DNA of 62,319 nt from Siphonobacter curvatus (GTDB lineage: Bacteria; Bacteroidota; Bacteroidia; Cytophagales; Spirosomataceae), in assembly GCF_002943425.1 (NCBI RefSeq), contig NZ_PTRA01000011.1, positions 549 to 62,867 on the forward strand, given 5' to 3'. Positions 50,040-62,040 of the stretch are shown in pieces. The position numbers and the translations under genes were made by a program. The notes below the pieces were generated by a model, which saw only the letters and a list, made by a program, of their open reading frames with translations, made no database searches and was not told the DNA's origin. The stretch's first letter is position 1. The number at the start of each line of letters is the position of its first letter.

Positions 50040-50088
50040 ATTCCTAACAAAAGAGCCTCTGATTTTCAGAGGCTCTTTTGTTAGGAAT
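50040..50088. terminator. Very long hairpin overlapping the kinase stop codon
   Basis: A perfect 23-bp stem (50040-50062 with 50066-50088) closes on a 3-nt loop. The inner GAGCCTCTGA / TCAGAGGCTC is flanked by AAAA and TTTT, as in a bidirectional terminator. The stop codon of the kinase gene (50081-50083) lies within the stem. Confidence 0.85.
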
Positions 50089-51778
50089 GGAGCGGTAATC
50101 GGAAGGCAAACAAGCTGCCGTATCCTAACCCCTCGCTTTGAGCCCAGATGTTGCCGCCCTGAGCTTCGATGAAATCTTTGGCGATGGCCAGACCCAGGCC
50201 CGTACCCGTTTTGCCCTGGCCATTTGGGATCTGGAAATACCGTTCGAAGATCTTGTTGAGGTACGATGCCTCAATGCCCCGGCCCTGATCGCGTACTGAG
50301 AATTCCGCCCACTGATCCACTTTTCGAATGACGATCTGGACGGTTCCCTGTTCCGGACTGTACCGAATAGCATTGGTAAGAAAATTGACCAGCACCCAGG
50401 CCGTTTTTTCAGGATCCGCCAGTACGGATAAAGGAGTGGTCGGTACCTCAACCGCCAGTTGCACGTGTCGCTGATCCGCCGTACTCCGAACGCTTTCTTG
50501 AGCGAGTGAAAGAATCGTTTCAGCGGAGACGGGAGCAATCTGTAGCTGAATATTGCCCGTTTCTACCTGTGAGAGTTCCAGTAGTTCACCCGTAATCCGC
50601 AGGAGCCGTTGGGCATCACTCTGAATACTCGAGACGAGTTGCTGCTGGTCGTCGTTGAGATCGCCCACCCGCTTGTCCGTGAGCAATTGCAGACTCATCT
50701 TAATGGCCGAAATGGGCGTTTTTAATTCGTGAGATACCGTCGCAATAAAGTTGGTTTTCGCCTGATCGAGATCGTGAAAGCGAGTAACGTTCCGGAGTAC
50801 AATGACTTCGCCAATCTGCGTATCGCCGTTTTTAACGGGTTGCGTTTCGCGACTGAAATAACCCTCCTGCCCTTCCGTGACGATTTTCAGTTCATCGCGG
50901 TCACCCTGCAACAGCGTACGGAGTAAATCATTCCGTACGGCTACGTCGGGGGCGTATTTGCCTACCAAATCAGATTCTTTCATACCCAGCAGCGAAAGTC
51001 CCAGCGGGTTTACAAACAAAATCGTCCGTTTCTCATCCAGACCAATGATGGCTTCTGGCATGGAGGCGATCACCGTTTCCACGCGTCGCTTCTCGAACTG
51101 AATTTTCGCCAGATTACTGTTTTCCCATTGGTCGAGTTTCTGGGCCATGGTATTGAAGGCGGCGGCGAGTTCGCCAAATTCGTCATCCGAACGAAAGCCC
51201 AGCCGGGTCGCGTAATTACGGGCGGCAACCTCCTTGATTTTTCCGGTTAGTTCCCGAATCGGATTGGCAATGAAGGAAGGAAAGTTAATGGCAAACGAAA
51301 ACGTCACCAGAAGGCAGAACGTAGCAATACAACTGAGCAGCAACAGAGCGGTATCGGCCGTCTGGCGGGCCGTTTGGCTTTTACGAAAAATAGCCTGTCG
51401 GTTCAGTTCGGAGATTCGGTGCAAGGGTTCGCGTAAGCTTTTCAAGGGAAAAAACTGGCTCGTATCCCGTTGCCATTGCGTATAGCCCAATCGAAGCTGA
51501 TGGGTAAGGTTCCGCTCGCCTACTTCGGTTACGTTTTGTTCCTGTTTTCGCAAAGCCGTTTCAAATTCCTGCATATCGGTTACGCGTAAGCGGTCTTCGC
51601 GGCCATCAATGAAGCTGGTCATCTGCTCTACGTAGCTAAGGGATTCGTAATTGGCTTTAAGAATGTCCTGAGAATCCTGAGCCAGCTCCCGTAAGAAATA
51701 CAGGCCGAGTCCACCCAGCAGGGAACTGACCAGAAACAAAAACCATAATCCCAGCGAAAGCTTTGCCTTCAGTTTCAT
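50081..51778 (-). CDS. Sensor histidine kinase of the Kdp locus (HAMP-PAS-HisKA-HATPase)
   Basis: 565 residues. TM1 'LSLGLWFLFLVSSLLGGLGL', a periplasmic helical region, TM2 around 145-165 ('CIATFCLLVTFSFAINF'), HAMP (~170-225, 'FGELAAAFNTMAQKLDQWE'), a PAS domain ('ASMPEAIIGLDEKRTILFVN'), HisKA with the phospho-His in 'IATVSHELKTPISAIKMSLQ' and HATPase 'WVLVNFLTNAIRYSPEQG', 'GQGKTGTGLGLAIAKDFIEA'. It overlaps the KdpD N-terminal gene by ATGA, so this is the kinase half of a split KdpD; the 4-TM domain of E. coli KdpD is not seen. Likely partner: the sigma-54 activator at 60712-62040 (inference). Confidence 0.9.
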   Translation of the reverse strand: MKLKAKLSLGLWFLFLVSSLLGGLGLYFLRELAQDSQDILKANYESLSYVEQMTSFIDGREDRLRVTDMQEFETALRKQEQNVTEVGERNLTHQLRLGYTQWQRDTSQFFPLKSLREPLHRISELNRQAIFRKSQTARQTADTALLLLSCIATFCLLVTFSFAINFPSFIANPIRELTGKIKEVAARNYATRLGFRSDDEFGELAAAFNTMAQKLDQWENSNLAKIQFEKRRVETVIASMPEAIIGLDEKRTILFVNPLGLSLLGMKESDLVGKYAPDVAVRNDLLRTLLQGDRDELKIVTEGQEGYFSRETQPVKNGDTQIGEVIVLRNVTRFHDLDQAKTNFIATVSHELKTPISAIKMSLQLLTDKRVGDLNDDQQQLVSSIQSDAQRLLRITGELLELSQVETGNIQLQIAPVSAETILSLAQESVRSTADQRHVQLAVEVPTTPLSVLADPEKTAWVLVNFLTNAIRYSPEQGTVQIVIRKVDQWAEFSVRDQGRGIEASYLNKIFERYFQIPNGQGKTGTGLGLAIAKDFIEAQGGNIWAQSEGLGYGSLFAFRLPLHS

Positions 51779-52884
51779 GATAAAATGATCAAATCAATGT
51801 CCGACTCGCTCAGTTGTTTGAGCAGTCGGCCGAATATATTAGTACGCCAGATCACCTGCAGTAAGCTCAGGTGCGGTTTGCCGATGCATACCGTCGTAAT
51901 CTGGTGTTTTTCGGCAGTCGTTGTAATGGCCTGGGCAATATCGTCTTCGTGCAACTGAATGACTTCGGCTCCCAGTTCGGTTGCAAGTTTGAAGTTATTA
52001 ATCAGATGACGTTGCAAGGCCAGGGAAATATTATTCTGATTTTCCTTCGGTGTATGCACGTACAACAGCACCCATTGGGCATTGTAGTACGAAGCCAGTC
52101 GGGCCGTTTTGCGGATAATCCGGCGGGCGGTGTCTGCCGAGGAGCTAATACAGGCCATAAACCGCTCAGGTTCGGCGGTACCAGGAAGTTCTTTCTGAAT
52201 TTTTCGTTCGACCTGCGTGGCTACTTCCCGCAGGGCCAGTTCGCGAAGCTGAAGTATTTTCTCGGACTGAAAAAAGTTACGCAAAGCCTGCTGAACCTTG
52301 TCCCGATGGTAGATTTTCCCTTCCTGCAAACGGGCAATGAGTTCGTCCGCTGTGAGGTCAATGTTGACGACTTCGTCAGCCAGTCTCAACACGTGGTCGG
52401 GAATTCGTTCGGTAATGGGTACGCCCGAAATGCGTTCGACGTCTTCATTCAGACTTTCCAGGTGCTGAATGTTGACGGCGGAAATGACACTAATGCCCTG
52501 GTCCAGAATTTCAAGGACGTCCTGCCAGCGTTTTTCGTTTTTGCTGCCGGGGATATTGGTATGAGCCAGTTCATCGACCAGTACTACTTCGGGATGGACG
52601 GCCAGTACCGTCGCCAAATCCATCTCCTCCAGTTCCTTTCCTTTATAAAATACCTTCCGGCGGGCCAGCATCGGAAGCCCCGTTACCAGGGCTTCCGTTT
52701 CGGCTCTTCCGTGGGTTTCGACAAATGCAATCTGAATGTCTACGCCGTTGCGGTGCAGAGTATGGGCTTCCTGTAACATCCGGTAGGTTTTGCCCACGCC
52801 CGCACTCATCCCGATATAAACTTTAAACTTTCCCCGCCGGGATTGCTGAAGGAGTTCCAGAAAATGGCGGGTGGAATTTTCCAT
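51775..52884 (-). CDS. kdpD: KdpD N-terminal sensor protein (KdpD + USP domains, no kinase)
   Basis: 369 residues, the cytoplasmic N-terminal half of KdpD as a separate protein. The KdpD domain has Walker A 'VYIGMSAGVGKTYRMLQEAH', 'IQIAFVETHGRAETEALVTG' and Walker B 'EVVLVDELAHTNIPGSKNEK'. The universal-stress domain follows from ~245. In S. aureus KdpD this domain binds c-di-AMP through an SxS-FTAxY signature; here the second part reads WVLLYV, so it does not match. The stop overlaps the kinase start by 4 nt (ATGA), so equimolar synthesis and complex formation are likely. Confidence 0.93.
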   Translation of the reverse strand: MENSTRHFLELLQQSRRGKFKVYIGMSAGVGKTYRMLQEAHTLHRNGVDIQIAFVETHGRAETEALVTGLPMLARRKVFYKGKELEEMDLATVLAVHPEVVLVDELAHTNIPGSKNEKRWQDVLEILDQGISVISAVNIQHLESLNEDVERISGVPITERIPDHVLRLADEVVNIDLTADELIARLQEGKIYHRDKVQQALRNFFQSEKILQLRELALREVATQVERKIQKELPGTAEPERFMACISSSADTARRIIRKTARLASYYNAQWVLLYVHTPKENQNNISLALQRHLINNFKLATELGAEVIQLHEDDIAQAITTTAEKHQITTVCIGKPHLSLLQVIWRTNIFGRLLKQLSESDIDLIILS

Positions 52885-53019: not shown

Positions 53020-54078
53020 CTAAAACGCAATCGAAATCGACGTTTTAATACTGGTACTCTGATTCGTATAGCCCCCGTTTTTCTGGAATACGTTTTCCGA
53101 ACTGCTCAACTGGCGAGCTTCCAGCCGAGCCAGTACCTGATCCGAAATTCGGTAATCAGCGTTCAGCGAATATCCGTATACCTGAAACGGAGCGGGCGAA
53201 GCAATGATCACGCCTTTTTTATCTTCATAATACTCAAAGCGAGCGGCCAGAGCGAAGCGATCCGTCGCCGCAAACCGCAGAATCCCCACGGGGGAGTACC
53301 AAAAGTTGTAATCGCTGGAGCCTTTCGATGCTTGCTCCCAGCCGCTGTCAAATCCGGCAATCAAACCCCATTTGGAACTCAGCTGGAAAATGCCGTAGAA
53401 ATTGTGGAAATACCGCATCTGCCGGGTCGAGTCGGGCTTGTCGTTCCCGATAAAGCTGCTGGAATTAAGCGTTACCCGGTCGGAAGGTTTGTACTGCACT
53501 TGCCAGCCCAGGGCGGGCGTCTGGTTGCCATCCACCCGCCGGATTCGCTGCCATCCGTTCAGGACTAAGGCGGATAGTGACCACTGGCCCGTGGCGTAGG
53601 AAAGTTTGGCTCCGGTTTCGTAGTAGGGCGAGTTTTCGGCCAGTAAACTACGGCTCAGCGTCCAGTTGTCTTTACCAATGGCACTTTCAAAGCCAATGTG
53701 CGAAGGCATGATCCCGGCATCCAGCCAAAGGTCTTTCGCCAGTTTTACGCCCACATTCGCTTCAAACACATGACGCAAAAGCTCGGGTTCGGCCGCCAGG
53801 TTATACTGGGCGTAGGTACCCGCCATCAAAGCCAGGTTGCCCCGAACGCGGTCGGTCTGGTAAGCGGCTTTGATAAAACCCAAGTTCAAATTGAATTCAT
53901 TATGACGATTGTGATTATACAGAAAGCCATCGCTAAGGTGATTGGCGGGACGGTTGAAATCGTAATTATAGTATACTTCGGCGTAGCCACTGATGGTCAA
54001 TGCTTTCTTGGAGTCCGACTGGGCCTGAACGGTCAGGGCGGTGGCACTAAGTACGAAAGCAGTAAGAAGAGTTTTCAT
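53020..54078 (-). CDS. Porin, BBP2/OmpL-like beta-barrel, in the Kdp locus
   Basis: 352 residues from the ATG at 54078, which starts the signal peptide 'MKTLLTAFVLSATALTVQAQ'; the upstream open frame is not used. The mature protein alternates polar and hydrophobic residues across about 16 strands ('ISGYAEVYYNYDFNRPANHL', 'VRGNLALMAGTYAQYNLAAE', 'WLDAGIMPSHIGFESAIG') and ends in Phe (TSIKTSISIAF). This matches the putative beta-barrel porin-2 family. It lies between kdpC and kdpD on the same strand and probably opens an outer-membrane route for potassium (inference). Confidence 0.85.
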   Translation of the reverse strand: MKTLLTAFVLSATALTVQAQSDSKKALTISGYAEVYYNYDFNRPANHLSDGFLYNHNRHNEFNLNLGFIKAAYQTDRVRGNLALMAGTYAQYNLAAEPELLRHVFEANVGVKLAKDLWLDAGIMPSHIGFESAIGKDNWTLSRSLLAENSPYYETGAKLSYATGQWSLSALVLNGWQRIRRVDGNQTPALGWQVQYKPSDRVTLNSSSFIGNDKPDSTRQMRYFHNFYGIFQLSSKWGLIAGFDSGWEQASKGSSDYNFWYSPVGILRFAATDRFALAARFEYYEDKKGVIIASPAPFQVYGYSLNADYRISDQVLARLEARQLSSSENVFQKNGGYTNQSTSIKTSISIAF

Positions 54079-54211
54079 AGGTACTGGAAAGGGAGTGAAA
54101 GAAAAATTCGATGTCTGGTCTGCGTTTTCCCCGCATGGCACACGGGGCTATTGAGATTGAACGCATTAACCATCGTATCAAAGGGTTTGTACCAGACACC
54201 AGGAAAAGAAA

Positions 54212-54757
54212 TTAAAGGGCTGCGTTGAGTTGAAGTACGTTCACCGTTTCGACACCCCCGATTAGTGAACGCTGCGTATGGGTTTTAACCAGTTGCTGGA
54301 GTTTTTCCTCGGAAATCTGCCGAAGCCGGGCAATGCGGGGAATCTGTACTAAGGCTCCCGGTACGCTGATGTCAGGGTCGAGGCCGGAACCCGAAGCCGT
54401 AACCAGATCGGCAGGAATATCGGCTTTCTTTACGCCGGGATTATGAACCAGAAAGGTGTCGATGCGAGCCTGTACATCTTTCAAATAGTCGGGGTTAGAC
54501 GGGCCTTTGTTCGAACCGGCGGAACTGGCGGCATTGTATCCGGCCGCCGACGGACGGCCCTGAAAGTAATCATCCTGCGTAAAAGACTGACCGATTAAGG
54601 CCGCTCCTACGACTTTGCCTTTATGCTCGACCCAAGCTACGTTACCCTTCGTCGGACTTAGTTGAGCAATGCCCCAAACGAGGGCGGGATAAACGATACA
54701 GAAAAAGAGAATCGTGAGTATAGTCAGCTTGAGGGCTGGGAAAAGATGAGATTTCAT
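54212..54757 (-). CDS. kdpC: Potassium-transporting ATPase subunit C
   Basis: 181 residues from the ATG at 54757 (MKSHLFPALKLTILTILFF). One N-terminal TM helix, then the conserved periplasmic part: 'LIGQSFTQDDYFQGRPSAAG', 'NAASSAGSNKGPSNPDYLKD', 'PADLVTASGSGLDPDISVPG' and 'ALVQIPRIARLRQISEEKLQ'. KdpC stabilises the KdpFABC complex. It is separated from kdpB by 337 nt, unlike the tight spacing usual for kdpABC. Confidence 0.97.
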   Translation of the reverse strand: MKSHLFPALKLTILTILFFCIVYPALVWGIAQLSPTKGNVAWVEHKGKVVGAALIGQSFTQDDYFQGRPSAAGYNAASSAGSNKGPSNPDYLKDVQARIDTFLVHNPGVKKADIPADLVTASGSGLDPDISVPGALVQIPRIARLRQISEEKLQQLVKTHTQRSLIGGVETVNVLQLNAAL

Positions 54758-55094
54758 GGTTTTACTTTTATAATGATCCATTTAATAAATACTAGGGCTT
54801 CCCGTATTGCAGAGTCACTGTTTCGTCCCGCAAACACGGCTGGTTATTTAGTCCGTATCGCGAACGCCGCTCACTTCCTCTTGCTCTAGGCCACCGCATT
54901 GCCGAGGAAGTAGGCGACTTATCGCGATAGGACGGGATGCGGTTTTATTGCGTCCATGCAGAAATCGGCTAATTCCAAGCAACAACTATCAATAAATGCT
55001 CGAAGATGCTCACGGGCTAGTCATTGGCTGTTTCTAAAGGATGAGGTTCGGCTAGGTAAATCGCTTGCCTCCCCAACCATCCACTCAACTTCTA
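54758..55094 (-). other. Non-coding gap inside the kdp operon with an imperfect inverted repeat
   Basis: 337 nt without a convincing ORF between kdpB and kdpC. An imperfect inverted repeat spans 54851-54933: the arms share GTCC, TATCGCGA and ACTTCCTC in the same order around a 23-nt centre, and the right arm contains the palindrome TATCGCGATA. It may be a mobile remnant or an RNA element in the operon transcript. Confidence 0.5.
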
Positions 55095-57143
55095 TTAGAA
55101 AAACAGTGATACGCCCAGATCTATCAGTTTGATGCCGATGAAGGGGATGACCACCCCACCCAGACCGTAAATAAACAGGTTGCGGCGAAGCAGAGCACTG
55201 GCTCCGATGGGTTTGTATGCTACGCCTTTCAGAGCCAACGGAATCAGCATGGGAATGATGATGGCGTTGAAAATAACCGCCGAAAGAATGGCCGATTCAG
55301 GACTGTGTAACCGCATAATATTCAAACTCTGCAAGCCCGGAATACTGAGAATGAACAGAGCTGGTACGATGGCGAAATACTTGGCGACGTCGTTAGCAAT
55401 GGAAAAAGTCGTGAGGGTACCGCGAGTCATCAGTAACTGTTTTCCGATTTCCACGATCTCAATCAGCTTCGTCGGATCATTGTCCAGATCGACCATGTTT
55501 CCCGCCTCTTTGGCGGCCTGCGTACCTGAGTTCATAGCTACGCCTACGTCAGCCTGAGCCAGAGCCGGGGCGTCGTTGGTACCGTCACCCATCATGGCGA
55601 CGAGCTTGCCGTTCGCCTGCTCGGTCCGAATGTACTGCATTTTATCTTCGGGCTTGGCCTCGGCGATGAAGTCATCGACCCCCGCTTTTTTCGCGATGTA
55701 CTCCGCCGTCAGGGGGTTGTCACCCGTTACCATTACGGTTTTTACGCCCATTTTCCGTAAACGTTCAAAACGTTCCTGCATACCGGGCTTGATGATGTCC
55801 TGTAATTCAATCACGCCCTGTACCTCATCATTTTGAGCAACTACCAGGGGCGTACCTCCATTTTTCGAGATCGCTTTCACTCGATCTGCAATCTCCGCCG
55901 GCACCGTATTCCCCTGCCGAATCACCTGATTACGGATGGAATCCTGGGCTCCTTTCCGAATCCGAACGCCCGAAGGAAGATTGACACCCGAAGAACGGGT
56001 TTCCGCCGTAAAGCGAATCAGTTCCACACCCGCGGGCAGACTCGCCTTGATTCCCTGCTGCTGGGCCAGCTCCACAATGGATTTTCCTTCCGGCGTTTCG
56101 TCGGCCAGCGAGGACAAAAGGGCGGTTTCTACGAAATCATTTTCCGCTACTCCATTCGCGGGCCAGAAGTGCGTCGCCCGACGGTTACCCAGCGTAATCG
56201 TACCCGTTTTATCGAGTAGTAGCGTATCGACGTCGCCGGCGGTTTCCACGGCTTTTCCTGATTTAGTAATCACGTTCGCCCGCAGGGCCCGATCCATACC
56301 GGCAATACCAATGGCTGAAAGCAAACCGCCAATCGTGGTCGGAATCAGACAAACGAAGAGCGAAATGAAGGCCGCAATGGGAATGGGTGTGTTCGCGTAG
56401 TCGGCAAAAGGCTTCAGAGTAATACACACGATGACGAAGACCAGCGTGAAACCCGCTAGTAAAATCGTCAGGGCAATTTCGTTCGGGGTCTTCTGGCGAG
56501 AAGCTCCTTCGACGAGGGCAATCATTTTATCCAGAAAACTCTCGCCGGGTTCGGTCGTGACCAGTACTTTGATCTGATCAGAAAGCACTTTTGTACCCCC
56601 CGTGACGCTCGAACGGTCGCCACCCGCTTCCCGGATGACCGGGGCCGATTCGCCCGTAATGGCCGACTCGTCGATGGTCGCAATCCCTTCAATAATTTCG
56701 CCGTCGGAAGGAATGATGTCACCGGTTTCGCAGATAAAGACGTCTCCTTTGCGAAGTTGCGAAGACGGTACGGTTTTGATCTCGCCCACGTACATCTCAC
56801 CAATGGGTTGTACCAGTCGGGCGGGTGTTTCTTCGCGGGTTTTGCGTAAGCTATCGGCCTGAGCTTTGCCACGGGCTTCGGCCAGAGCTTCGGCGAAGTT
56901 GGCAAAAAGCAGGGTCAGCAACAGCACGATGAAAACAATCAGGTTATAGGCCAGCGAACCCTGGCTTTGATCGCCCGTTGCCACGATGTACACCGTAACG
57001 AGCAACATAACGATCGTACCCAGCTCCACGGTAAACATCACCGGGTTACGAAATTGACTACGGGGATTCAGCTTCACAAAAGCTTCCCGAATGGCCGTCT
57101 GCACCAACGCAGGTTCAAACAGCCGGGTGGATTTAGTACTCAC
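55095..57143 (-). CDS. kdpB: Potassium-transporting P-type ATPase subunit B
   Basis: 682 residues, the ATP-hydrolysing subunit of KdpFABC. P-type ATPase motifs: '[15 protein letters not shown]' (actuator TGES, 163-166), the phosphorylated Asp311 in '[15 protein letters not shown]', '[20 protein letters not shown]' and 'KGAQDS' (nucleotide-binding), and '[20 protein letters not shown]' with '[20 protein letters not shown]'. TM segments at ~38-85 and ~225-290 and at the C-terminus. Full length, no defects seen. It follows kdpA by 81 nt. Confidence 0.98.
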
Positions 57144-57224: not shown

Positions 57225-58964
57225 TTAGATAGAGAAGTATTCAGCCAGCGGACCCAGGGCCAGGGCCGGGAAGAAGGCCAGAGCGGCAAGGATAACGATG
57301 ACCGCAAAGACCATGATGCCAAACGTGCCCGTGTCGGTACGCAACGTTCCCGCCGATTCCGGAATGTATTTCTTTGAAGCCAGCAGACCCGCAATCGCTA
57401 CCGGACCAATGATGGGCAGAAAGCGACTAAAGATCAGACAGATACCCGTAGTAATATTCCAGAATGGATTGTTATCGCCCAACCCCTCAAAACCGGAACC
57501 GTTGTTGGCTGACGAAGACGTGTATTCGTACAGCATTTCCGAGAATCCGTGGAAACCGGGGTTATTCAGCCAGGCCGTCGCCGTATTGGGTTGACCTTCG
57601 GCATTGACATACCACCAGCCCATGTTCACATCGCCCGCCGCCAGGTAGCTCGCAATCGCTGTACCGGCCATAATCAGTAAAGGGTGTAGAAGGGCTACAA
57701 TCATGGCAATTTTCATCTCTCGCCCTTCGACTTTCTTACCCATGAATTCGGGCGTACGGCCTACCATCAAGCCTGAAATGAATACCGCGAGAATAATGAA
57801 GATGTAAAAGTTGAGAATACCGACCCCGCAACCGCCATAGAAGGCGTTGGTCATCATGCTCAGCAGCTCAGCCATGCCGGATAAGGGCATGGTACTGTCG
57901 TGCATGGCGTTGACGGAACCCGTAGAAATGACGGTCGTGATGATGCTCCAGTACGCCGAGGCGACCGAGCCAAAACGAACCTCCTTGCCTTCCATGCTGC
58001 CGCCAGGCTGGCTGATGCCCAACTGAGCGATGGCGGGGTTTCCCTGTACTTCACTCCATACCGCCGGAGCCAGTAAGGCCAGAAAACCGACGGTCATCAC
58101 GCCGAATACCATGTAGCTGAATTTCCGGTTACGGATGTAGTAACCCAGGGCAAAAATCATCCCCAGCGGAATGATCGTTTGAGCGAGCAATTCCACGATC
58201 ATCGTGAAATAACTGGGGTTTTCGAGTGGGTGAGCGGAGTTCACTCCGAAATAACCACCCCCATTCGTACCGATGTGTTTGATGGCGATCATGGCCGCCG
58301 CCGGTCCCTGTGACACCTGTACGCTATCGCCCTGCATGGATACGTACGAAGCCTTGCCTTCCAGATTCATTGGTGTACCGTTGAAGACCAACGTCACAGC
58401 GACGATCAGCGAGAGGGGAAGCAGCACGCGGGTACAGGATTTCAGAAAGAAATCGTAGAAGTTGCCGAGCTGCGTCGTCTGTTTATCGCGAATGGCTTTA
58501 AACACAATCACGGCCGCTGCCATGCCCGTACCGGCGGATACGAATTGCAGGAAATTCAGACAGAAAATCTGCGTGAAGTACGAAACACCCGTTTCTCCGG
58601 AGTAGTGTTGGAGGTTACAGTTGACGAGGAAGCTAATGGCCGTATTAAATGCCAGATCGGGCGTCATGTCGGGGTTTCCGTCGGGATTCCAGGGTAGCCA
58701 GCTTTGATTCGTCAGGACGAACATCGCCCAGAGGAACCAGACGAGGTTGATCGTCAGTAACGCTTTCAAATGCTCTTTCCAGGTCATTTCCCGGAGGGTA
58801 TCAATACCAGAAATCCGCAGAAACAACCGTTCGAGGGGACCGAGTACCGGATCAAGCAAAGTCCGCTCTCCGGCGTAAACGCGGGCCATATAGCGGCCCA
58901 GGGGTATCGAAAGGGCAATCGTGATTCCAAAAATCAGAGCGATGCCCAGTAGTTCAGTAGTCAT
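57225..58964 (-). CDS. kdpA: Potassium-transporting ATPase subunit A
   Basis: 579 residues, the K+-selective channel-like subunit of KdpFABC, with about ten TM helices. Four degenerate selectivity-filter loops are visible, including 'SFLVNCNLQHYSGETG', 'GTNGGGYFGVNSAHPLENPS', 'GGCGVGILN' and 'SSANNGSGFEGLGDNNPFWN'. The N-terminal 'ALSIPLGRYMARVYAGERTL' is standard. Starts 3 nt after the kdpF stop. Ends 'FFPALALGPLAEYF' as in the family. Confidence 0.98.
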   Translation of the reverse strand: MTTELLGIALIFGITIALSIPLGRYMARVYAGERTLLDPVLGPLERLFLRISGIDTLREMTWKEHLKALLTINLVWFLWAMFVLTNQSWLPWNPDGNPDMTPDLAFNTAISFLVNCNLQHYSGETGVSYFTQIFCLNFLQFVSAGTGMAAAVIVFKAIRDKQTTQLGNFYDFFLKSCTRVLLPLSLIVAVTLVFNGTPMNLEGKASYVSMQGDSVQVSQGPAAAMIAIKHIGTNGGGYFGVNSAHPLENPSYFTMIVELLAQTIIPLGMIFALGYYIRNRKFSYMVFGVMTVGFLALLAPAVWSEVQGNPAIAQLGISQPGGSMEGKEVRFGSVASAYWSIITTVISTGSVNAMHDSTMPLSGMAELLSMMTNAFYGGCGVGILNFYIFIILAVFISGLMVGRTPEFMGKKVEGREMKIAMIVALLHPLLIMAGTAIASYLAAGDVNMGWWYVNAEGQPNTATAWLNNPGFHGFSEMLYEYTSSSANNGSGFEGLGDNNPFWNITTGICLIFSRFLPIIGPVAIAGLLASKKYIPESAGTLRTDTGTFGIMVFAVIVILAALAFFPALALGPLAEYFSI

Positions 58965-58967
58965 ACG

Positions 58968-59048
58968 TTAAAAATTTTCGGGCTTGAGCAGTACGTAAAT
59001 CATGTACGCGAAAACCAGAAGGGCTAAAACAAAGAGAGCGAGAAACAT
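58968..59048 (-). CDS. kdpF: KdpF, 26-aa membrane subunit of KdpFABC
   Basis: ATG at 59048 (CAT at 59046-59048) and TAA at 58968-58970. The peptide is one TM helix, MFLALFVLALLVFAYMIYVL, and ends in LKPENF, matching the KdpF hallmark of a short helix followed by LxKPExF. KdpF stabilises the complex at the interface with KdpA. It stops 3 nt before kdpA and starts 5 nt after the stop of the 28-aa ORF, so translation is coupled. Confidence 0.9.
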   Translation of the reverse strand: MFLALFVLALLVFAYMIYVLLKPENF

Positions 59049-59053
59049 GGCTT

Positions 59054-59140
59054 TCAGATTTTTTCGAAAAAGTCGACGGATTTGAAAAAGAGCCAGAAGC
59101 ACACCAGCCCGAGCAGTAACCAAAGAATCGTGAATAGCAT
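59054..59140 (-). CDS. 28-aa single-TM peptide at the head of the kdp operon
   Basis: ATG at 59140, TGA at 59054-59056. The sequence begins MLFTILWLLLGLVCFWLFFK and ends SVDFFEKI: one hydrophobic helix with a short charged tail. It sits 5 nt before kdpF and directly behind the sigma-54-type promoter, so it is the first gene of the operon. I know no named family. It could be a second KdpF-like stabilising subunit or a regulator of the complex; both ideas are inference. Coding nature is supported by tight spacing and a clean TM pattern, not by homology. Confidence 0.6.
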   Translation of the reverse strand: MLFTILWLLLGLVCFWLFFKSVDFFEKI

Positions 59141-59170
59141 GAGGAAGAAATGTTAGTCTGTTGTCTACTA

Positions 59171-59187
59171 TTCAAGGCGTATGCCAG
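59171..59187 (-). promoter_or_regulatory. Sigma-54 (-24/-12) promoter of the kdp operon
   Basis: On the minus strand CTGGCA (59187-59182), 6 nt, TTGAA (59175-59171). The sigma-54 consensus is YTGGCACG-N4-TTGCW. The -24 element is perfect; the -12 element has A for C in TTGC. The predicted start near 59160 leaves a 20-nt leader before the 28-aa ORF. Confidence 0.55.
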
Positions 59188-59259
59188 GGAGTGGTTGTTG
59201 ATTGTTAGGGGTTGGTTGTTAGGATATTACGGATAAAATGAATTGATGGGAAATGAAAA

Positions 59260-59302
59260 ACCCTTCCAAAATGAAAGGGTCGTTTTTTCATTTTGGAAGG
59301 GT
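59260..59302. promoter_or_regulatory. Large dyad in the divergent kdp region (enhancer or leader hairpin)
   Basis: Perfect 17-bp arms, ACCCTTCCAAAATGAAA (59260-59276) and TTTCATTTTGGAAGGGT (59286-59302), 9-nt centre. AAGGGT also occurs at 59275-59280, so the half-site is present three times, with copies at 59275 and 59297 in the same orientation 22 bp apart. Centre about 120 bp upstream of the predicted kdp start, where sigma-54 activators bind. The minus strand has a short T-run after the stem, so a leader terminator is the alternative. Confidence 0.6.
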
Positions 59303-60711: not shown

Positions 60712-62040
60712 TTACCCCAGATGATATTCTTCAATTTTACGATACAGCGTGGTTAGCCCAATACCCAATAGACGGGCGGCTTCCGTTTTATTACCCTGCG
60801 TGTGCTGGAGTACCTTACGAATGTGACGTTGCTCAACGGCGGAAAGTTCGAAAGAATCCAGAGGGGTACTTTCCCGGAACGGCAGACTATCGGCTCGTAA
60901 GATGCCATCCTCGGTCAGAATCAGAGCCCGTTCGATGACGTTGCGTAGTTCCCGGATATTACCCGGCCAGGCATGCTGGCTCAGTTGCTGCAAAAAGGCC
61001 GGGTCGATGCTTCGAAACGGAATGCGGAGTCGCTCGGAAAGCGTACGAGCCAGACCCTGAGCCAGTAAGGGTAAATCGTCGAGACGTTCGCGTAAGGACG
61101 GGAGTTCAATCTGAAAAACGGACAAACGATAGTATAAGTCGGCTCTAAAATGCCCTTCCTGACTTTCTTTCAATAAATCACGATTCGTAGCGGCGATGAT
61201 GCGTACGTTTACCTGCGTCGGTTTCGTATCACCCACGCGAATGAATTCATGACTTTCGAGTACGCGAAGTAATTTAGCCTGTAGATCCAGCGATAACTCA
61301 CCAATTTCATCCAGAAAAAGCGTACCGTGATTGGCTTCTTCAAACAAACCCTTTTTGTCTTTCAAGGCTCCAGTAAACGCTCCGGCCCGGTGACCAAACA
61401 ACTCGCTTTCCAGCAATTCACGGGAGAACGCTCCGCAGTTGATAGCTAGAAAAGTTTTGGTTCGACGATTACTTTCCCGATGGATCGCTTGCGAAAAAAG
61501 CTCCTTGCCCGTACCCGTTTCTCCGATCAACAACACCGTCGTGTCGGTATGAGCGACTTTCCGAGCCAGATCTTTGGCCCGAAGAATGGCGGGCGACTGT
61601 CCCTGAATCTGATCCAGTGCGTACAGGTTGCCAGCAACCTGTTGTTCCAGTTCCCGAATCCTGAACTGCAAGCGGGCTTTTTCGGCGGCCTTGGCTACCA
61701 GCGTCATGATTTTATCATTATCATCCCCTTTTACCAGATAGTCGAAAGCCCCGTTTTTCATGGCCGTCACGCTATCCGGAATGGTACCGTAAGCTGTCAG
61801 TAGCAATACTTCCATACAAGGATAGCGTTGCTTGATTTTCTGTACCGTATCCACACCGTTGCCGTCGGGCAGACGAACGTCCATGAGCACTACTTCAATG
61901 TCACTATTTTCTTCGAGTACCTTTAATCCGGAACGAATGTTCTCGGCTTCCAGAACCTGATACTGTTCAAGCTTCAGCAGGCGGGCTAGCAAACTGCGTA
62001 AGCGGGTTTCATCGTCAATGATGAGAATTTTATTTTCCAT
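60712..62040 (-). CDS. Sigma-54-dependent response regulator (NtrC family)
   Basis: 442 residues. Receiver domain 1-~120 with phospho-acceptor Asp54 ('VVLMDVRLPDGNG'). AAA+ domain with Walker A 'LLIGETGTGKELFSQAIH', the sigma-54 contact loop GAFTGA (220-225, 'FGHRAGAFTGALKDKKG'), Walker B 'GTLFLDEIGELSLDLQAKLL' and 'ATNRDL'. Fis-type HTH at the C-terminus ('HTQGNKTEAARLLGIGLTTL'). It activates sigma-54 promoters when phosphorylated. The only other sigma-54 signal seen in the window is upstream of kdp, and no kdpE is present, so the Kdp kinase is a candidate partner (inference). Confidence 0.96.
   Translation of the reverse strand: MENKILIIDDETRLRSLLARLLKLEQYQVLEAENIRSGLKVLEENSDIEVVLMDVRLPDGNGVDTVQKIKQRYPCMEVLLLTAYGTIPDSVTAMKNGAFDYLVKGDDNDKIMTLVAKAAEKARLQFRIRELEQQVAGNLYALDQIQGQSPAILRAKDLARKVAHTDTTVLLIGETGTGKELFSQAIHRESNRRTKTFLAINCGAFSRELLESELFGHRAGAFTGALKDKKGLFEEANHGTLFLDEIGELSLDLQAKLLRVLESHEFIRVGDTKPTQVNVRIIAATNRDLLKESQEGHFRADLYYRLSVFQIELPSLRERLDDLPLLAQGLARTLSERLRIPFRSIDPAFLQQLSQHAWPGNIRELRNVIERALILTEDGILRADSLPFRESTPLDSFELSAVEQRHIRKVLQHTQGNKTEAARLLGIGLTTLYRKIEEYHLG

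Follow-up and report, generated by a model that had tools for sequence, protein, structure and literature searches.

Candidate sigma-54 control of kdp by an NtrC-type regulator in Siphonobacter curvatus and related Bacteroidota

The kdp locus and its genes

The window, which is the whole stretch of 62,319 nucleotides that was analysed, carries on its minus strand the genes for an NtrC-type response regulator and a small protein (60599-60192), followed by a micro-ORF, kdpF, kdpA, kdpB, kdpC and the genes for a porin, a short KdpD and a histidine kinase, in this order (Table 1). A RibD-like gene on the plus strand lies between the small protein gene and the micro-ORF. No OmpR-type gene was found in the kdp operon of the window, in agreement with the sequence-only reading of this DNA, which had reported that the locus lacks an OmpR-type kdpE.

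Table 1. Coordinates of the genes and putative regulatory features at the kdp locus. Bit scores of the two enhancer-like sites come from a matrix trained outside the window's family.
Feature	Position	Strand	Basis
NtrC-type response regulator, proposed kdp activator	60712..62040	-	Pfam; orthologs in 87 of 150 family genomes
Distal enhancer-like site CCCTTCCAAAATGAAAAAA, imperfect palindrome	59283..59301	-	18.5 bits (17-mer 59284-59300); genome search match with two mismatches
Proximal enhancer-like palindrome CCCTTTCATTTTGGAAGGG	59261..59279	-	22.2 bits (17-mer 59262-59278); genome match with zero mismatches
Candidate sigma-54-type -24/-12 promoter, CTGGCAT-N5-TTGAA	59171..59187	-	predicted start near 59160
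Conserved 28-aa micro-ORF, family not named	59054..59140	-	similar ORF by pattern in 76 of 106 loci; Pfam match only below cut-off
kdpF	58968..59048	-	PF09604, 21.8 bits against a cut-off of 21.2
kdpA	57225..58964	-	profile matches
kdpB	55095..57143	-	TGES motif, residues 163-166
kdpC	54212..54781	-	Pfam
BBP2 outer-membrane porin, between kdpC and kdpD	53020..54141	-	PF07642; relative in 75 of 81 family loci
Short KdpD, proposed KdpB serine kinase	51775..52884	-	KdpD domain PF02702; without histidine kinase domain
HAMP-PAS histidine kinase, proposed regulator partner	50081..51778	-	HAMP-PAS-HisKA-HATPase; SHELKTP H-box

The regulator had been read from the letters as a sigma-54 response regulator with a GAFTGA motif, and the Pfam search bears this out with a receiver domain (PF00072), a sigma-54 AAA+ domain (PF00158), a lid and a Fis-type HTH (PF02954), in addition to an exact GAFTGA. 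The motif is exact in 77 of 87 regulators, and six of the remaining ten carry GSFTGA or GAYTGA. The regulator of one related locus (L106; loci and genomes are cited by our L and G handles) has GAFTSA, and no form matched by the search patterns was found in those of L054 and L147. An activator with GAFTSA is also present at L121 (family f18), which has a divergent kdp layout, a mid-length KdpD and no operator of the kind described below.

A split KdpD sensor had been proposed downstream of kdpC. Only its first part can be retained, as a KdpD of 369 aa with a Walker A motif of the G-X5-GKT form (GMSAGVGKT) at residue 25, and a porin gene intervenes after kdpC. The second protein is not derived from KdpD; it is a HAMP-PAS kinase with no match to the KdpD membrane domain DUF4118, and it resembles KdpD in its catalytic part only. 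Instead of a KdpD combining membrane and kinase domains, the locus has a short KdpD and a separate kinase. The best match of the short KdpD in the library was the NCBIfam model NF038185 (KdpD-like non-kinase potassium sensor), at 354.9 bits and below the cut-off of 550 bits.

Micro-ORFs of 27-28 aa, ending in FFEKI or similar, precede kdpF in many related loci, and their products could be an extra pump subunit or a regulator. The BBP2 porin also accompanies kdp in 14 of 40 loci of other families, and L064, L144 and L164 have a second, diverged kdpA-like gene behind kdpC. Two rpoN genes, each encoding all three sigma-54 domains, are present in the organism's own genome (G000, C1:3064694 and C3:222096), and rpoN was found in 148 of 150 family genomes. 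A few of these have three or four copies. The second rpoN of the organism (C3:222096) adjoins an activator and lies near a kinase with an NtrB-like H-box.

The region upstream of kdp

The site that had been read as CTGGCA-N6-TTGAA ahead of the kdp micro-ORF is present (CTGGCATACGCCTTGAA, minus strand) and occurs only once in the window. The looser pattern TGGCAY-N5-TTG likewise has this single match, with a shuffled mean of 1.0 over both strands. Thirty bases separate the site from the first micro-ORF (ATG at 59140). It has GG at -24, spaced 12 bp from the G of the -12 element. The GC dinucleotide at -12 is missing, as the window reads TTGA, in line with the departure from TTGC noted in the sequence-only reading. 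The site scored 14.1 with a hand-written sigma-54 matrix (p 0.005, the minimum attainable from 200 shuffles). A literature search found no sigma-54 consensus for Bacteroidetes.

Farther upstream of the candidate promoter on the minus strand, TTACCCTTCCAAAATGAAAAAACGACCCTTTCATTTTGGAAGGGTTTTTC contains three ACCCTT/AAGGGT half-sites, which fall in the interval 59302-59260. They had been described as one 17-bp dyad with three half-sites. The half-sites stand, and they resolve into two palindromic sites, the distal one imperfect, instead of a single dyad. The sites are 22 bp apart from centre to centre, and the nearer centre is located 85 bp upstream of the -24 element. A search of the 6.4-Mb genome with the consensus gave a single perfect match, at the proximal palindrome; the distal one differs from the consensus by two mismatches. 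When up to two mismatches were allowed, the consensus had 13 matches, fewer than the 24 of a reversed control pattern.

Conservation across related genomes

The association of the regulator with kdp was examined in 150 genomes of the window's family, with an E-value of 1e-105 or better defining a regulator ortholog. KdpA was found in 88 and the regulator in 87 of them; both were present in 85, KdpA only in three (G004, G109, G137), the regulator only in two (G033, G128) and neither in 60 (p 1.5e-35, a statistic that ignores relatedness). Among these exceptions, the KdpA match of G137 is a fragment and the G033 regulator lies at a contig end, while about 1 kb behind the G128 regulator shows neither operator nor kdp, and G004 has kdp with the operator and no regulator that could be found. 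Outside the family but within the same class or order, KdpA exceeds the cut-off in 42 genomes, all of which carry a regulator ortholog, and two further orthologs occur without KdpA; the KdpA match of G190 was below the cut-off and was dropped. In a sample of 395 genomes of the phylum, the regulator scores among the matches listed fall into two groups, of at least 618 bits (64 genomes) and of at most 527 bits. KdpA was not found in nine of the 64 genomes with a regulator ortholog (G160, G165, G186, G221, G265, G372, G397, G433 and G511), and the regulator can therefore have other roles. The orthologs in such genomes suggest other targets or a loss of kdp.

A total of 121 kdp loci were compared, 81 from the family, in which 88 genomes have a KdpA match (the organism's own included), and 40 from other families of the phylum, in which 108 genomes have one. 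A regulator had to score more than 600 bits in the fetched stretch, and an OmpR-type KdpE had to lie within 11.5 kb of kdpA. The NtrC-type regulator was present in 83 loci, KdpE in 11, both in none and neither in 27 within the fetched stretch. A short KdpD is encoded in 22 of these 27 loci, with the regulator elsewhere in the genome for 20 of the 22. In L043 the regulator is spread over two open frames next to kdp, and the edge of the fetched stretch truncates it in L111. A full-length KdpD paired with KdpE was found in 10 of the 121 loci and never together with the NtrC-type regulator. A KdpE elsewhere in the organism's genome, which would have spoken against the circuit proposed in the sequence-only reading, was rejected: none of the 15 OmpR-type regulators found in this genome groups with the 11 KdpE proteins from the phylum, and a branch (100/99) separates the two sets.

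One family genome with kdp, G109 (locus L162), differs in all of these parts. Neither a regulator ortholog nor the operator and promoter-like element were found in it. Directly upstream of kdp it encodes a kinase with DUF4118 and, placed within the KdpE clade (100/99), an OmpR-type regulator; its kdp kinase ends at 410 aa, without the ATPase domain. Although it is one genome, the joint absence of these parts and the presence of KdpE instead give a strong hint of a natural swap.

Motif discovery without a prior pattern in 69 non-redundant family upstream regions returned the palindrome sCyTwyCAwwwTGrwArGrTy as the strongest motif (log-likelihood 687, with two shuffled sets reaching 103 and 91), and the same palindrome was obtained from 26 regions of other families (176 versus 73 and 75). 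Matrices were trained on one of the two sets and applied to the other, with the shuffled 95th percentile as threshold. By these cross-trained matrices, the palindrome is present in 99 of 105 loci of the short-KdpD/NtrC-type kind and in none of 14 other loci, not counting L040, which is on a cut contig, and counting L162 (0.8 bits) apart. The six loci below the threshold are L055, L097, L098, L099, L112 and L153, although in L112 a strong operator pair lies at a greater distance, 1.1 kb ahead of kdpA. Of the 103 site-bearing loci, 90 have another site no more than 40 bp away, nearly always at 19-23 bp, against a chance rate of 2.3%. In 2.05 Mb of these loci, 122 of 143 strong sites lie less than 1 kb upstream of kdpA, as scored with a matrix partly trained on the same regions. 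The site was also found upstream of kdp in Paraprevotella clara, Mucilaginibacter gilvus, Elizabethkingia miricola and a Mucilaginibacter MAG. In the named-genome scan, kdpA lies near the regulator in four of 80 loci among the matches listed, all four from Bacteroidota, and was not found near it in the other 76, some of which are short. L108 has a second operator-like pair, located 7106 and 7126 bases downstream of where kdpA starts and some 1.4 kb ahead of kdpD; this would fit a regulated promoter of their own for kdpD and the kinase in this genome.

For the promoter element, motif discovery in the 69 family regions yielded GG-N8-TTGRCAT after the palindrome (log-likelihood 353). The element was not recovered from the 26-region set of other families, in which the second motif was regulator coding sequence and the promoter search matched the micro-ORF and other unrelated sequence, so these regions were inspected by eye. 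In the interval between operator and first ORF, the sigma-54 matrix gave p<0.05 for 46 of 94 loci, while 48 fell short (combined p 1.4e-36), compared with one of 15 other loci, a set that includes the site-bearing genus mate L040. Since this matrix was hand-written, the family-set motif and the pattern counts between operator and first ORF are given more weight: TGGCAY occurs in 71 of 95 loci (9.3 shuffled), GG-N8-TTGGC in 40 of 95 (shuffled mean 0.94) and TGGCAY-N5-YTGV in seven of 95 (0.26 shuffled).

The site, whose lack of conservation would have spoken against the sequence-only reading, is conserved in relatives, in lineage-specific forms and with one weak genus mate. The TTGAA form of the window recurs in the genus mates L038 (a near-copy), L039 and L040 and in L074 of another genus, TTGA also occurs in L134 and L115, and the genus mate L037 has a weaker form, ATGGCATGTGCCTTTCT. 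Canonical -24/-12 sites were found at the same place in some other families, such as GTGGCATCCGGATTGCA in L099 and TTGGCATTGCTTTTGCA in L129, and GC at -12 is also seen in L111, L101 and L133. The -12 element is non-canonical in the window (TTGA) and mostly TTGG in the family. The original -24 reading fits the window's genus, L074 and some other families. TTGGCA as the -24 element of all relatives was rejected, because many family loci have an exactly spaced GG upstream of it, and it therefore reads better as -12 there. The conserved TTGGCA of the family seems to serve as the -12 and not the -24 element, and the window's genus would then use a promoter shifted by about 12 bp.

Proposed control of kdp, alternatives and significance

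The comparison ties the regulator to kdp and supports a conserved pair of operator-like sites, an element resembling a promoter, the absence of KdpE and, in G109 with its KdpE, the joint absence of these parts. We consider it probable (roughly 0.86), from these sequence comparisons, that kdp is controlled by sigma-54 and the NtrC-type regulator through the two palindromes and the -24/-12 promoter; such a switch would be the simplest reading. Transcription of kdp would depend on RNA polymerase with sigma-54. At low potassium, the presumed signal, the HAMP-PAS kinase at the operon end would be activated and would phosphorylate the regulator, which would bind the two palindromes (consensus CCYTWYCA-WWW-TGRWARGG, about two helical turns apart). 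With the nearer palindrome centred about 110 bp upstream of the start, looping would open the promoter, and the transcript would cover the micro-ORF, kdpFABC, the porin, the short KdpD and the kinase. The short KdpD would form a separate, post-translational arm, probably inhibiting KdpB by serine phosphorylation at high potassium; judging from work on short KdpD (PMC11018627), it is likelier to be a KdpB serine kinase than a member of the transcription circuit. The circuit of the sequence-only reading is supported in part: the comparison speaks for the regulator tied to kdp, the enhancer-like pair, the sigma-54-type promoter and the lack of KdpE, and not for treating both downstream proteins as halves of KdpD.

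The non-canonical -12 element, together with the weak matrix scores of about half of the loci, the regulator orthologs in genomes without KdpA and the few regulators deviating from GAFTGA, could also point to a housekeeping-type Bacteroidetes promoter for kdp, with the NtrC-type neighbour controlling something else or working without sigma-54. This is very improbable, since TAnnTTTG, the housekeeping -7 element of the phylum, was not found in the window's kdp upstream region and is rarer than chance upstream of kdp (2 of 95 loci versus 8.4 expected), while most regulators have an exact GAFTGA and some other families have canonical -24/-12 sites at the same place. That the palindromes are an intrinsic terminator only is hardly credible and was rejected, as the site is kept in 40 of 42 loci with the regulator not within 1 kb, 26 of 41 examined loci of this kind lack a T-run, and no site was found in the 14 other kdp loci or in G109. 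Moreover, base identity is conserved across families beyond pairing, usually in two phased copies. A T-run does follow the best palindrome in 47 of 62 loci in which no more than 1 kb separates the end of the regulator gene from kdpA, compared with 15 of the 41 examined loci with the regulator farther away, and the operator may thus double as the terminator of an adjacent regulator gene.

The SHELKTP H-box, present in 90 of 102 kdp kinases, is one which we take to be of the PhoR/WalK type; kinases of this type are usually paired with OmpR-type regulators, and an NtrC-type partner would be unusual. A kinase near another activator in the same genome has AHEVRNP, unlike SHELKTP. The regulator could accordingly control kdp with another kinase as partner, with the HAMP-PAS kinase serving a different regulator. 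We regard this as unlikely, because 76 of 77 family loci (the remaining one on a cut contig) and all 26 others have the kinase behind the short KdpD, and because G109, without the regulator, has a kdp kinase without the ATPase domain. These two observations are also the reason for pairing kinase and regulator in the proposed sigma-54 switch.

With its KdpD and KdpE, the Kdp pump is a textbook example of two-component control. The window would share with the E. coli type a two-component control of the adjoining kdp operon and differs from it in having neither a full-length KdpD nor an OmpR-type KdpE. The background assumed in the sequence-only reading, control by KdpE at sigma-70-type promoters, was incomplete. 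In Desulfovibrio vulgaris, the NtrC-type regulator DVU3334 with GAFTGA targets kdpFABC and is listed among sigma-54 regulons (PMC3333781, PMC4641369), so that control of kdp through sigma-54 has a precedent. Compared by description, DVU3334-DVU3339 resemble the window in this regulator and in having the K+ sensor/Usp part and the kinase as separate proteins, whereas the regulator lies inside the kdp operon and two more regulators target it. Orthologs are described there, among the genomes compared, only for D. vulgaris Miyazaki and Syntrophobacter fumaroxidans.

The short KdpD resembles the serine kinase of PMC11018627 in lacking a kinase domain, in its Walker A motif, which that work found to be essential for KdpB phosphorylation, and in the TGES of KdpB. 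The same work counts Bacteroidota among the phyla with mainly short KdpD. For KdpD without the kinase part, which it describes mostly from species lacking KdpE, it suggests a solely post-translational role, whereas the present analysis proposes a transcriptional module in such species. Deinococcus radiodurans, as described in the available part of PMC5716572, likewise has the KdpD N-part apart from the kinase and a dedicated response regulator, which differs in being 23.9% identical to E. coli KdpE and is presented there with no mention of sigma-54. No report of sigma-54 or NtrC control of kdp in Bacteroidota was found in searches of open-licence PMC papers, and the word kdp is absent from the main text of PMC12316311. 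The spread in Bacteroidia, the operator and the non-canonical -12 element appear to be new.

For Bacteroidia as a rule, we see slightly better than even odds that one orthologous sigma-54 switch controls kdp, with a PhoR/WalK-type kinase, a phased operator pair doubling as terminator when adjacent to the regulator gene and a -12 element that is often TTGR. The lack of KdpE would then mean that control was replaced and not lost. A transcriptional circuit is thereby proposed for a large group of species with a short KdpD, with operator and promoter predicted at base level. Sigma-54 promoters of Bacteroidota may also have -12 elements that deviate from the usual consensus, and this would have consequences for predicting them genome-wide.
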